Assembly: GCF_000280925.3 (NCBI RefSeq)
Contig: NZ_CP012109.1
Location: forward strand, 7,088,501-7,152,500
From: Myxococcus hansupus
Lineage (GTDB): Bacteria; Myxococcota; Myxococcia; Myxococcales; Myxococcaceae
Length of the DNA stretch: 64,000 nucleotides
Direction: 5' to 3'
The notes below the pieces were generated by a model that saw only the letters and a program-made list of their open reading frames with translations, was not told where the DNA came from and did no database searches. Positions 34,290-39,175 of this stretch are shown one piece after another; within the stretch, counting starts at the first letter, position 1, and each line of letters starts with the position of its first letter. A program made the translations under genes and the position numbers.

Positions 34290-34306
34290 GGGGCCCTCAG
34301 GGCCCC
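34290..34306. terminator. short bidirectional terminator-like palindrome
   Basis: GGGGCCCTCAGGGCCCC is a near-perfect palindrome in the 12-bp gap and overlapping the end of the two converging genes. As RNA it forms a GGGGCC/GGCCCC stem with a five-base loop. Confidence 0.45.
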
Positions 34307-35463
34307 AGCGTCCGCGCGAGCACCTCGACGGCGGCGGCGAACACCTCGGGCTGTGGCAGCAGCGACAGCACGAGGAAGGCGCCGCCGCCGAAGTCGTAGA
34401 AGTAGCCCGGCTGCACCGCCACGCCCGCGTCCAGCAGGGCCAGGCAGGTGGCCTCCTCGCCGGGCTGCCTCGGAATCCGCAGCACCGCGCTCCACCCGCC
34501 CTCCGCCGGCACCACGTCCCACGGTGCGCCCACGGGCCGGGCCGCGAGCAGGCGCTGGCGGTTGCCCCTCACCCGCTCCAGCACCGCCGCCTGGAAGCGC
34601 GGCGCATGCGCCAACAGCCCTGGCAGGGCGCGCTGCACGGGCGTGCCCACGGGGAGGACGGCGTCCGCCAGCCACTCCAGCCGGGCCAGCGCCTCGTCAC
34701 GGAGGTGCGCGGGCCCGCCCACGTGCGTCCACGCCAGCTTGAGGCCGGGCAGCCCCGCGGACTTGGACAGGCCCCCGAGCGCGAAGGTGAGCATGGGCAA
34801 ATCGCGCCCCGCCACCGTCTCCACGCGCCCCTGCCCCGCGTCCCACGCGAAGGGCGAGAAGACCTCGTCGCAGACGAGCGGCAACCTCCGACGCGCGCAG
34901 ACGTCCGCCAGCGCGGCCAGCTCGCCTTCGTGCAGGAAGTGGCCGGTGGGGTTGCCGGGGTTCACCACCAGCACCGCGCGGGTGCGGTCGTCCACCGCGT
35001 CGCCCACGGCGTCCGCGTCCAGGCCGAAGCCGTGGGCCCGCGGCAAGGGGTAGGAGCGCGTCTGGACGCCTTCCAGGCGCGCGAGGTGCTCGAAGAGGGG
35101 GTAACAGGGGGCCGGGACGAGCACGTTGTCCCCGGGCTCGCACAGGAGCTTGAAGAGCCAGCCGTAGGCCTCGCTGGTGCTGGAGGTCAGCAGCAGGTGC
35201 TCGGCGGCCACCCGGGCGCCCCGCGCGGCGAAGTCCGCCACCAGCGCCTGGCGCGCGGTGACGAGACCTTGAGGCTCGGGTTCGTAGGTGAAGGCGCCGT
35301 CGGAGGCCAGCAGGGCCGCGTCCGGCGTGGGCAACCCCACACGCGTGGGGTTGGATTCCGTGAGGTCCCGGAGGGGACGGCCGCTGGCGCGGTGCCGTTC
35401 GAGCGCCAGCGCCAGCGGGTTGGGTGTCCGAGCGAAGTCCGTCCGCGCGGAGAAACGACTCAC
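34297..35463 (-). CDS. class I/II pyridoxal-phosphate aminotransferase
   Basis: A 388-residue fold-type I aminotransferase. Visible motifs are YEPEPQGLVTARQAL, TSSTSEAYGWLFKLL (phosphate cup), VVNPGNPTG at about 167, CDEVFSPF, and the lysine motif LGGLSKSAGLPGLKLAW, in which Lys forms the Schiff base. The substrate is not predictable; it resembles aspartate/tyrosine-like and MalY-like enzymes. Start is GTG at 35463, which overlaps the stop of the upstream small gene (GTGA, 4 bp), so they form a coupled pair. It converges with the binding-protein gene. Confidence 0.9.
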   Translation of the reverse strand: MSRFSARTDFARTPNPLALALERHRASGRPLRDLTESNPTRVGLPTPDAALLASDGAFTYEPEPQGLVTARQALVADFAARGARVAAEHLLLTSSTSEAYGWLFKLLCEPGDNVLVPAPCYPLFEHLARLEGVQTRSYPLPRAHGFGLDADAVGDAVDDRTRAVLVVNPGNPTGHFLHEGELAALADVCARRRLPLVCDEVFSPFAWDAGQGRVETVAGRDLPMLTFALGGLSKSAGLPGLKLAWTHVGGPAHLRDEALARLEWLADAVLPVGTPVQRALPGLLAHAPRFQAAVLERVRGNRQRLLAARPVGAPWDVVPAEGGWSAVLRIPRQPGEEATCLALLDAGVAVQPGYFYDFGGGAFLVLSLLPQPEVFAAAVEVLARTLGP

Positions 35464-35834: not shown

Positions 35835-35871
35835 AACGCGCCGGAGGCCGATTTTCCGGCCTCCGCGCGTT
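35835..35871 (-). terminator. terminator of the bioBFD operon
   Basis: AACGCG (35835-35840) pairs with CGCGTT (35866-35871), and CGGAGGCCG pairs with CGGCCTCCG inside it around an ATTTTC loop, with one bulged C. On the minus strand this stem starts at the bioD stop codon and is followed by a short T-containing run. It separates the biotin genes from the next minus-strand gene. Confidence 0.75.
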
Positions 35872-36554
35872 CAGGGCAGCAGCGGCCGCAGCGCGCGGCG
35901 GAACGCGGCGTGGCGCCGCCGCGCATCGGGCAGGAAGGGCACCGGTCCCAACACCGGGACGCCGTGACGCGCCTCCAGGATGCGCCGGTTGTCTCGCTCC
36001 GAAACATCCTTCGCGGACGTCCCGCGCGACAGCAGCACGGCGCGCACGGCAATGCGGCGCGCGGCCAACGCCTGGAGCGACAGCGCGGTGTGGTTGAGCG
36101 TGCCCAGCCCCGCGCGCGCCACCAGCAGCACGGGCAGGCGCAAGGTGGCGATGAGGTCGATGATGTCGTGCTTCGAATCCAGCGGCACGAACAAGCCCCC
36201 TGCCCCCTCCACCACCGCGGTGCCGCCGCGCAGCCGCCGCCACGCGGCCAGCGTGACGTCCCAGTCGGGCTCGCGGCCCAGGCGGCTGGCGGCCACGCCC
36301 GGCGCCACGGGCAGGCGGAACCGGTGGGGACATACGGCGTCCACGCTCAGCGAGCTGCCCGCCGCCTCCCGCAGGGCCAGCGCGTCCGCGGGCGCGCGCA
36401 GGGAGGCGCAGCCGCTCTCGTAGGGCTTGAAGCCCTCCGGCCGCAGCCCCGCGTCCGCCAGCAGCGACAAGAGCGCGCACGACGCCTGCGTCTTCCCCAC
36501 GCCCGTGTCCGTGCCGGTGACGAAAATCTGGAACGGCTTGCGCGTGTCAGCCAC
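35871..36554 (-). CDS. bioD: dethiobiotin synthetase
   Basis: ATP-dependent formation of the ureido ring of dethiobiotin from 7,8-diaminopelargonic acid and CO2. The 227-residue product has the P-loop GTDTGVGKT at about 13-21, [18 protein letters not shown] at about 114, and a helical C-terminus. Its start overlaps the end of bioF by eight bases, so translation is coupled. It is the last gene of bioB-bioF-bioD and ends at a strong hairpin. Confidence 0.94.
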
Positions 36555-37722
36555 GGTGGACTCCCACGCCGCGCAGCGCCTCCAGCGCCAGGTCCACGTG
36601 GCCCACGGTGTGGGACGCGGACAGGCAGAAGCGCAGGCGGCTGGTGCCCTCCGGAACGGTGGGCGGACGGATGGCCTTCACCAACACCCCCGCCTCGCGC
36701 AGGCGCCTCGCGGCGTCCAGGGCACGCTCGGGCTCGCCGAGGATGACGGGGAACACGGCGCTGCGCGGCTCGGCCTGCAAGCCCAGGCTCCGCAGGCCCT
36801 CCGCGAAGCGGCGGATGTTGCGCCACAGCCGCTCCCGCAGCGGCGGGTCCCCTTCCACCGCGTCCACGGCGGCCTCGGCGGCGGCGCACAGGTGCGCGGG
36901 CAACGCCGTGGAGAACACGAAGGGCCGCGCCCGCGACACCAACAGGTCCGCCACCGCGCGCGAGGTGGCCACGTACGCCCCCATGACGCCCAGGGCCTTG
37001 CTCAAGGTCCCCATGCGCAGGTCCACCGCGTCCTCCAGGCCCAGCTCGTCGCAGAGGCCCGCGCCCCGCGCGCCCAGCACGCCGGTGGCATGCGCCTCGT
37101 CCACCATCAGCGCGGCGCCGTGGGCACGGCACGCGGCGACGATGTCGCGCAGCGGCGCGGTGTCTCCATCCATGGAGAAGACGGTGTCCGTCACCACCAG
37201 CTTGCGCCGGGCGGGGGTCTCCGCGAGCGCGCGCTCCAGCGCCTCCACGTCCGCGTGGGGATAGACGCAGACGCGGGCGCGGGACAGGCGGCAGCCATCC
37301 ACGAGCGAGGCGTGGTTGAGCGCGTCGGAGAAGACAGAGTCTCCGGGCCCCACCAGCGCGGGGATGATGCCGGTGTTCGCGGCATAGCCGCTGTTGAACA
37401 GGCGCACGGCCTCGGCGCGCTCGAAGGCGGCCAGGCGGGCCTCCAGCCGATGGTGCGCGGCGGTGTCTCCCACCACCAAACGACTGGCGCCGGTGCCCAC
37501 ACCGTAGCGCTCCACCGCCGCCAGGGCCGCGGCGCGCACGGTGGGCGACGAGGCCAGTCCCAGGTAGTCGTTGGACGAGAAGTTGACGAGCGTCTCGCCC
37601 CCCACGCGGACCACGGGCCCCTGGGGTGAATCCAGGGGCTCCAGGTACCGGCGCAGACCGCGCTCGGACAGGGCCTCCAAATCCTCCCGGGCCCACGCCG
37701 CCGCGACGGTGTCATCAGTCAC
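36547..37722 (-). CDS. bioF: 8-amino-7-oxononanoate synthase
   Basis: Pyridoxal-phosphate enzyme that condenses pimeloyl-thioester with alanine. The 391-residue product has the alpha-oxoamine synthase pattern: [14 protein letters not shown] at about 48, [46 protein letters not shown] and the Schiff-base Lys in [14 protein letters not shown]. It starts six bases after bioB ends and overlaps bioD by eight bases. Confidence 0.95.
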
Positions 37723-37728
37723 GATGAA

Positions 37729-38766
37729 TCAACCTTCCTGACGCGGCTCCAGGGGGCGGATGCCCGCCTTCTCCAACAGGGCCATGTCCTGGGTGTACTC
37801 CGGGTTGCCGGTGGTGAGCAGCTTCTCGCCGAAGAAGAGCGAGTTGGCGCCCGCCATCATGCACAGAAGCTGCGCCTCTTCGTTCATCTGCTGCCGGCCC
37901 GCGGACAGGCGCACCATGGACTGCGGCATCAGGATGCGCGCCGTGGCGATGGTCCGCACCATGTCCACCGTCTCCACGCGCTGCTGCTCCTGGAGCGGCG
38001 TGCCCTCCACCGCCACCAGCGCGTTGATGGGCACCGACTCCGGGTGGTGCTCCTGGTTGGACAGCGTGCGCAGCAGGTTGCAGCGGTCCTCCACCGACTC
38101 GCCCATGCCGATGATGCCGCCGCAGCACACGGAGATGCCGGCGTCACGCACGCGGTTGAGGGTGCGCAGGCGGTCCTCGAACGTCCGGGTGGAGATGATG
38201 TCGCCGTAGTGCTCGGGCGAGGTGTCCAGGTTGTGGTTGTAGGCGGACAGGCCGGCCTCGCGCAGGCGCTTCGCCTGGCTGTCGGAGAGCATGCCCAACG
38301 TGGCGCACGCCTCCATGCCCAGCGCGCGCACGCCGCGCACCATCTCCAGCACACTGTCGAATTGCGGACCGTCCTTCACCTCACGCCATGCGGCGCCCAT
38401 GCAGAAACGGGTGGCTCCGGCGGCGCGGGCCTTGGACGCGGCGTCCAGCACCTCCGGCACCGCCATCAGCTTCTCCGCCTTGACGCCCGTCTTGTAGCGC
38501 GCGGCCTGCGGGCAGTAGGAGCAGTCCTCCGGGCAGCCACCCGTCTTGATGGACAGCAGCGAACAGAGCTGCACCTTGTTGTCCACGAACACCGCCCGGT
38601 GGACCGTCTGCGCCCGGTGCACCAGGTCCAGCAGCGGCAGCTCGTAGAGCGCCTTCACCTCGGCCAGGGACCAGTCGTGACGCACGTCCACGCCCGAGGG
38701 CGGCGGCGCGGCGACATGGGCATGGCCGGAGAAGGACTCGCTGGAGGCGGTGACGGTGTCGGGCAT
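37729..38766 (-). CDS. bioB: biotin synthase
   Basis: Radical-SAM enzyme that inserts sulfur into dethiobiotin. The 345-residue product has the 4Fe-4S motif in [14 protein letters not shown] (C-x3-C-x2-C) at about 72, [30 protein letters not shown] and [10 protein letters not shown] near the end, with the Arg and Cys residues that hold the auxiliary 2Fe-2S cluster. It is the first gene of bioB-bioF-bioD. The upstream region holds a BirA-like operator. bioA, bioC and bioH are not in the window. Confidence 0.96.
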
Positions 38767-38811
38767 GGGCTCCTCTACGGACGAATGAGGGCCCGAACGT
38801 GCGCGGACCCC

Positions 38812-38855
38812 GGAAAGTTGTCAACGCCTGCGAGCAGACAGGTTGACGACTTTCC
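38812..38855. promoter_or_regulatory. BirA-like (biotin repressor) operator upstream of bioB
   Basis: GGAAAGTTGTCAAC (38812-38825) and GTTGACGACTTTCC (38842-38855) form a 14-bp inverted repeat with one mismatch and a 16-base spacer. The core reads TTGTCAACg-N14-gGTTGACgA, which has the layout of the known BirA box (two 9-bp half-sites TTGTnAACC and GGTTnACAA about 14-16 bp apart). It lies 46-89 bp before the bioB start, and on the minus strand it includes a TTGACA hexamer that could be a -35 element. Confidence 0.75.
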
Positions 38856-38905
38856 AGGGCCCATCTCCCCTTGGGAGGGGTCAGCGCGTCAGACGACGCG
38901 CGGCA

Positions 38906-39175
38906 CTAGACGTGGACGCGGCGTCCCCTGCCCGCCAGGCCGACGAGGAACAGCACCAGGAGTGCGCCCAGGACGGAGAAGAGAAGACCCGTCGGGTGCA
39001 GATCGAACACACGGCCGTCACTGCGGAACAGCGACGAGATAAAGCCGCCCACGAAGGAGCCGGCGATACCCAGCAGCGTCGTGGCAAGCAGTCCCATGGA
39101 CTGGTTGCCCGGCATGAGCGCGCGGGCAATGAGACCCGCCAGAAGGCCGATGACCAGGAACGCGATAATCCCCAT
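38906..39175 (-). CDS. GlsB/YeaQ/YmgE-family (transglycosylase-associated) membrane protein
   Basis: An 89-residue protein of three membrane helices: MGIIAFLVIGLLAGLIARAL with the family MPGNQ loop, LLATTLLGIAGSFVGGFISSL, and LLFSVLGALLVLFLVGL. This family is small, stress-linked and of unknown function despite its name. The ATG at 39175 has an excellent ribosome binding site (GGGAGGT). It is a single gene on the minus strand between radA (divergent) and bioB. Confidence 0.9.
   Translation of the reverse strand: MGIIAFLVIGLLAGLIARALMPGNQSMGLLATTLLGIAGSFVGGFISSLFRSDGRVFDLHPTGLLFSVLGALLVLFLVGLAGRGRRVHV

Follow-up and report, generated by a model that had tools for sequence, protein, structure and literature searches.

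The window analyzed here, a stretch of 64,000 nucleotides of the Myxococcus hansupus genome, carries a tight bioB-bioF-bioD operon, in which a gap of 6 nt separates bioB from bioF, and bioF shares 8 nt with bioD (Table 1). As the original prediction had held, the operon lacks bioA; the gene was located 1.1 Mb away, at C1:8235390-8236661 (451.8 bits; cut-off, 405). The biotin transporter gene bioY is present in one copy in the genome. The next gene on the same (minus) strand, at positions 34297-35463 and 407 bp past bioD, encodes a class I/II PLP aminotransferase; its best NCBIfam match is GntC-like and lies far below the cut-off (126.1 bits versus 415), and no BioA model is among the 25 NCBIfam matches listed for it.

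Table 1. Features of the biotin operon and its upstream region, in window coordinates
Feature	Coordinates	Strand	Basis or remarks
bioD, dethiobiotin synthase	35871..36554	-	TIGR00347, 131.6 bits (cut-off 83.3)
bioF, 8-amino-7-oxononanoate synthase	36547..37722	-	TIGR00858, 457.2 bits (cut-off 426.45)
bioB, biotin synthase	37729..38766	-	TIGR00433, 395.8 bits (cut-off 225)
Possible weak -10 element, CACGTT, 17-nt spacing	38796..38801	-	Inferred from position alone
Extended palindrome of the original prediction	38812..38855	.	Outer arms not conserved
Putative BirA box (bio operator), palindromic	38818..38849	-	TCGTCAACC-N14-CGTTGACAA on the bioB strand; sequence and conservation
Putative -35 element, TTGACA, within the bioB-proximal half-site	38819..38824	-	Sequence; role inferred
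Upstream co-directional gene, PF04226 protein	38912-39175	-

The stretch in front of bioB reads GGAAAGTTGTCAACG-CCTGCGAGCAGACA-GGTTGACGACTTTCC and contains an inverted repeat, the core of which lies 51 nt from the bioB ATG (38766, minus strand). Direct reading of the forward strand gave a core of TTGTCAACG (38818-38826) and GGTTGACGA (38841-38849) separated by 14 nt. The 14-nt arms, GGAAAGTTGTCAAC (38812-38825) and GTTGACGACTTTCC (38842-38855), are 16 nt apart and pair at 13 of 14 positions, confirming the predicted repeat, and a repeat search lengthened them to 21 nt at 86% (38805-38825 and 38842-38862). The half-sites match 16 of 18 positions of TTGTCAACC/GGTTGACAA. In the accessible part of the source, the BirA box consensus is given as TTGTAAACC-[N14/15]-GGTTTACAA (PMC545781); the half-sites agree with it or with its C/G variant at the central position, and the spacer of 14 is one of the two lengths it allows, so that the prediction of the half-sites and spacing of a biotin repressor box fits the published form. 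The TTGACA hexamer that had been said to overlap the repeat is present on the bioB strand, as the complement of the forward-strand letters at the coordinates in Table 1. The CACGTT downstream of it is a poor match to TATAAT; by eye, the stretch around it looks alike in close relatives.

The genome consists of one contig of 9,490,432 bases, and the reversed pattern was used as a control in counting sites. Within the window, an idealised box with up to three mismatches had one match (0.08 expected), a number reached by 8 of 100 shuffles. In the whole genome, the box was the only N14 site with up to two mismatches (control, 0); three sites were found with up to three mismatches (control, 1), one with up to two mismatches and a free central base (control, 1), and none with N15 and up to two mismatches, where the control had no match either. 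The bare inner arms, GTCAAC-N13..19-GTTGAC, occur once genome-wide, at the box, yet their reversed control matches four times, and uniqueness alone is therefore not evidence. Since reversed controls yield about as many matches as the box does, the in-genome count says little, and it is conservation that rules out chance. The loci of the two other three-mismatch sites (L084 and L085) lack any queried biotin gene, and both sites were treated as chance; the L085 site falls within a reading frame that has CxxCH motifs, presumably a cytochrome-like protein.

Conservation was assessed across an even sample of 99 genomes from the order, the window's own among them. An N14 box with up to two mismatches was found in 62 of the 99, and its reversed control in 6. 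A bioB gene was identified in 91 genomes (E ≤ 1e-40), and up to 460 bp upstream of it was scanned with spacers of 14 and 15. At least 15 of the 18 half-site positions were matched in 71 of these 91 regions and in 0 of 1820 dinucleotide shuffles; because many of the 71 are close relatives, the counts are not independent. They comprise 48 of the 50 genomes sampled from the window's family, 22 genomes of the sister family f5, where the box precedes bioB in 22 of 22 genomes with a bioB match, and one further genome, G001. One locus with just 44 bp upstream of bioB (L187, from G003) was outside the 91 regions, and G003 was counted through another locus (L218). The host had been taken for a myxobacterium, and its nearest named relative by bioB is indeed Myxococcus qinghaiensis (89% identical). 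The same kind of box lies before bioB in that species and in a Myxococcaceae metagenome-assembled genome (L004); none was seen before bioB in a Myxococcales metagenome-assembled genome from lichen (L037).

Within the window's family the spacer is 14 nt in 47 of 48 genomes and 15 nt in one, while in f5 it is 15 nt in 13 of 22 and 14 nt in 9. Among the site-bearing genomes of the window's family, the arm nearer bioB reads GTTGACAA in 47/48 and the distal arm TCGTCAACC in 41/48; all 22 f5 genomes have GGTTGACGA as the proximal arm. TTGACA is present in the proximal arm of all 48 family genomes and, in the same reading direction, in the distal arm of 3. Its presence in every proximal arm suggests that BirA probably covers a -35 element, and the proximal half-site may double as the -35 hexamer in this family. 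The extension of the palindrome beyond the core, which formed part of the original prediction, is real at this locus and lineage-specific in its outer part. Across the 48 family genomes, 1 to 9 of 10 outer flank positions pair (mean, 4.7), compared with 3.9 between the flanks of different genomes; the window's nearest relatives (L120-L127) reach 8 or 9, and both L137 and L148 reach 9. The mean is slightly above the control. Because the flanks (GGAAAG/CTTTCC here) are not conserved, the extension was rejected as a longer operator and is not counted as part of the site. In three genomes a half-site-like GGTTGACA(A/C) adjoins the box, downstream of it in G073 (L188) and upstream in G070 (L184) and G011 (L185), and is possibly a third half-site.

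A single match to the biotin protein ligase family was found in the genome (product L001:1213-2217), and the frame that follows it is, we assume, a type III pantothenate kinase. The protein carries an N-terminal helix-turn-helix (HTH) at residues 14-66 (PF08279 HTH_11; 50.8 bits; cut-off, 25), which the original prediction had named as a check. Its catalytic and C-terminal ligase domains score above the Pfam cut-offs for BPL_LplA_LipB (PF03099; 88.2 bits) and BPL_C (PF02237; 47.4 bits), and TIGR00121 is likewise above its cut-off (220.5 bits; cut-off, 83.1). Residues 21-328 align with the Escherichia coli BirA chain 1bia. Two NCBIfam models remain below their cut-offs, the bifunctional-BirA model NF008848 (233 bits; cut-off, 362) and the repressor-domain model TIGR00122 (57.4 bits; cut-off, 70), and we infer that both were calibrated on other lineages. 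In the accessible part of the source, group II biotin protein ligases are defined by an N-terminal helix-turn-helix (PMC4016012); we retain the protein in this group because the NCBIfam cut-offs are outside that definition and the Pfam HTH is above its own.

Across the order, the box and the BirA HTH occur together. An HTH was called present on the basis of alignment, where that to the window genome's BirA started at residue 11 or earlier. BirA was matched in 95 genomes, and in ten of them (G002, G085, G004, G015, G007, G022, G021, G013, G016, and G010; L242-L251) the alignment covers residues from 57 or later alone, without an aligned N-terminal HTH. A Pfam scan at E ≤ 0.1 found HTH_11 absent from 9 of these 10 short-aligning frames. 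In G015, where the BirA frame contains stops and the stretch was read directly, tblastn with the window genome's BirA revealed no HTH part in the 3-kb locus, and in G027, where the BirA match is split in two, Pfam detected HTH_11. A box precedes bioB in 69 of 82 genomes with an HTH-containing BirA and in 0 of 7 without one (Fisher P = 1.1e-5, from a hand-compiled table and ignoring kinship). Genome G039 (L217) is scored as lacking a box in this count, its bioB being fragmentary and its true upstream region lying outside the data; without it the fraction is 69/81 (P = 7.9e-6). Two genomes with a box and no BirA match, G067 and G071 (81% and 74% complete), stand outside the comparison.

The small genomes G022 and G085, both of the window's family, lack the BirA HTH and the box before bioB. 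G085 has two box-like sites with two mismatches on other contigs (control, 1), and a compact palindrome, GGTTGTCGTTGACAACC, before bioB (L215), the spacing of which is not that of BirA. Conversely, 13 genomes, 12 of them testable, have an HTH-containing BirA and bioB with no box at bioB, so the HTH is not always a predictor of the box. By eye, the DNA before bioB in the genomes without a box showed no common palindrome, and several box-less families keep an HTH-containing BirA that is 45-57% identical to that of the window genome. One tentative reading, which we hold to be possible rather than probable, is twofold: operator recognition may have diverged within the order, such that families with an HTH-containing BirA and no TTGTCAACC-type box would use a different operator not yet described or would have lost repression and kept the HTH, and the operator of the window's family may have become asymmetric because one of its half-sites doubles as the -35 element.

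It had also been proposed that biotin control extends from this operon to other loci. In the window genome this was not borne out: the box is the only site with up to two mismatches, and the bioA (L086), bioY (L264), and birA (L001) loci contain no site matching at least 13 of 18 positions with spacers of 13-16. The best score at each is 12/18, a value reached by 147 of 1820 shuffled regions (up to 460 bp; spacers, 14-15), and none of the six best-scoring places per locus is directly before the gene. A search of the genome for bioC gave nothing above the family cut-off of 184.95; the best match scored 58.3 bits. The proposal does hold in sister family f5, where the box precedes biotin genes at a second place: at least nine genomes carry another box before bioH followed by bioC (L091, L092, L093, L095, L096, L097, L098, L274, and L275), the number being a lower bound because second boxes were sought with N14 in 24 f5 genomes and with N15 in four (G012, G026, G047, and G050). 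The gene names rest on L257, in which bioH (157.3 bits; cut-off, 206.95) and BioC (167.6 bits; cut-off, 184.95) are the best matches yet below cut-off; bioH is also the best match in L258, whereas in L259 a PcaDC model scores 111.0 and bioH 108.7, and the remaining f5 loci were named by similarity to L257. The nine-genome pattern is a putative two-operon biotin regulon.

Several further sites were noted in individual genomes. In the f5 genome G069, the 5' end of a bioY-like gene carries a second box (C340; L276:1950-1981), which overlaps the 40% identical stretch, and control of a biotin transporter is possible there. G050, a genome without a bioB match, has a perfect f5-form box with N15 (C26:802815-802847; L273:1501-1533, L277:2016-2048) before a frame that by eye resembles a periplasmic substrate-binding protein, with no queried biotin gene nearby. 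The same genome has a box-like site with two mismatches some 43 bp ahead of where the birA alignment begins (C9:192259-192290; L256:2260-2291/L101), which may reflect autoregulation or chance. Three relatives of one genus share a second two-mismatch site, TCGTCAACC-N14-CGTTCACAA (G051:C5:704144-704175, L254; G046:C7:1758790-1758821, L253; G059:C14:15450-15481); no queried biotin gene was found in L253 or L254. Weak whole-genome hits in G008, G019, G024, G030, G039, G045, and G027, which belong to families lacking the box at bioB, have no queried biotin gene within about 1.5 kb and were treated as chance.

Collectively, these findings suggest that the repeat very probably serves BirA, the biotin repressor/ligase, as an operator controlling bioBFD. 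What the data presented here show directly is the operon, a conserved site before it, and a single HTH-type BirA in the genome. By analogy with the E. coli system, biotinyl-AMP would accumulate once the acceptor proteins carry their biotin, BirA charged with biotinyl-AMP would bind both half-sites as a dimer, and the bound protein would cover the TTGACA -35 element in the bioB-proximal half, blocking transcription of bioBFD; dimer binding, the biotinyl-AMP trigger, and promoter occlusion are all taken from that system.

An inverted repeat that lies 51 bp before bioB and downstream of a co-directional PF04226 gene might instead act as RNA, either terminating the upstream gene or forming an attenuator hairpin in the bio mRNA. 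We consider this highly unlikely, as it is the arm sequences that are conserved, whereas anywhere between 1 and 9 of 10 flanking positions pair, and nearly identical letters recur before bioH-bioC in f5. Moreover, with a -35 element inside the proximal arm, transcription would begin past the repeat, and the longest T run from the box to bioB is 3. A similarly small probability is given to binding by another biotin regulator, of the BioR, BioQ, or BioL type, or by an unrelated factor. The 12 testable genomes that have an HTH-containing BirA and bioB without such a box would be in line with this; against it, the half-site follows the C/G variant of the BirA consensus, and no box precedes bioB in the seven genomes in which BirA lacks the HTH. 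The motifs of BioR and BioQ also look different from the repeat. Finally, the matches of the reversed controls in this genome, four for the inner arms and one each for the N14 box with up to three mismatches and with up to two mismatches and a free central base, might be read as a sign that the palindrome arose by chance, an explanation with next to no probability: the site stands at the same place in 48 of the 50 sampled genomes of the family, no shuffle among 1820 reaches a score of 15, and this conservation refutes it.

The box adds a further case to a familiar kind of switch, with an ordinary mechanism. A literature search, with most subscription journals outside its scope, returned no account of a Myxococcus BirA site. 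The present analysis places a BirA switch, with what seems to be a single-operator regulon, in the Myxococcus lineage, and the relatives that lack both the BirA HTH and the box constitute a natural experiment; knowledge of biotin control is otherwise unchanged. In E. coli, BirA combines an HTH with a ligase, and its operator bioO has two half-sites, overlaps the bio promoter, and sits between the divergent bioA and bioBFCD. The HTH-ligase protein, the two half-sites, and, putatively here, the overlap with the promoter are common to both systems; in contrast to bioO, the box described here precedes a one-directional operon, with bioA elsewhere and no box seen at bioA. A closer likeness is found in Geobacter, where the accessible part of the source lists TTGTcAACC-[N14]-GGTTgACgA before bioF of two species and TTGTcAACC-[N14]-aGTTgACAA before bioB of G. 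sulfurreducens (PMC545781). The bioF site differs from the window's box at 1 of 18 half-site positions. The BirA summary table in that part of the source covers six genomes, none of them myxobacterial (PMC545781). Compared with the Geobacter and Desulfuromonas boxes given there, position 9 of the proximal half-site is non-consensus here, as it is in 36 of the 48 family genomes, and, as in Geobacter and Desulfuromonas, birA lies apart from the biotin genes (PMC545781).
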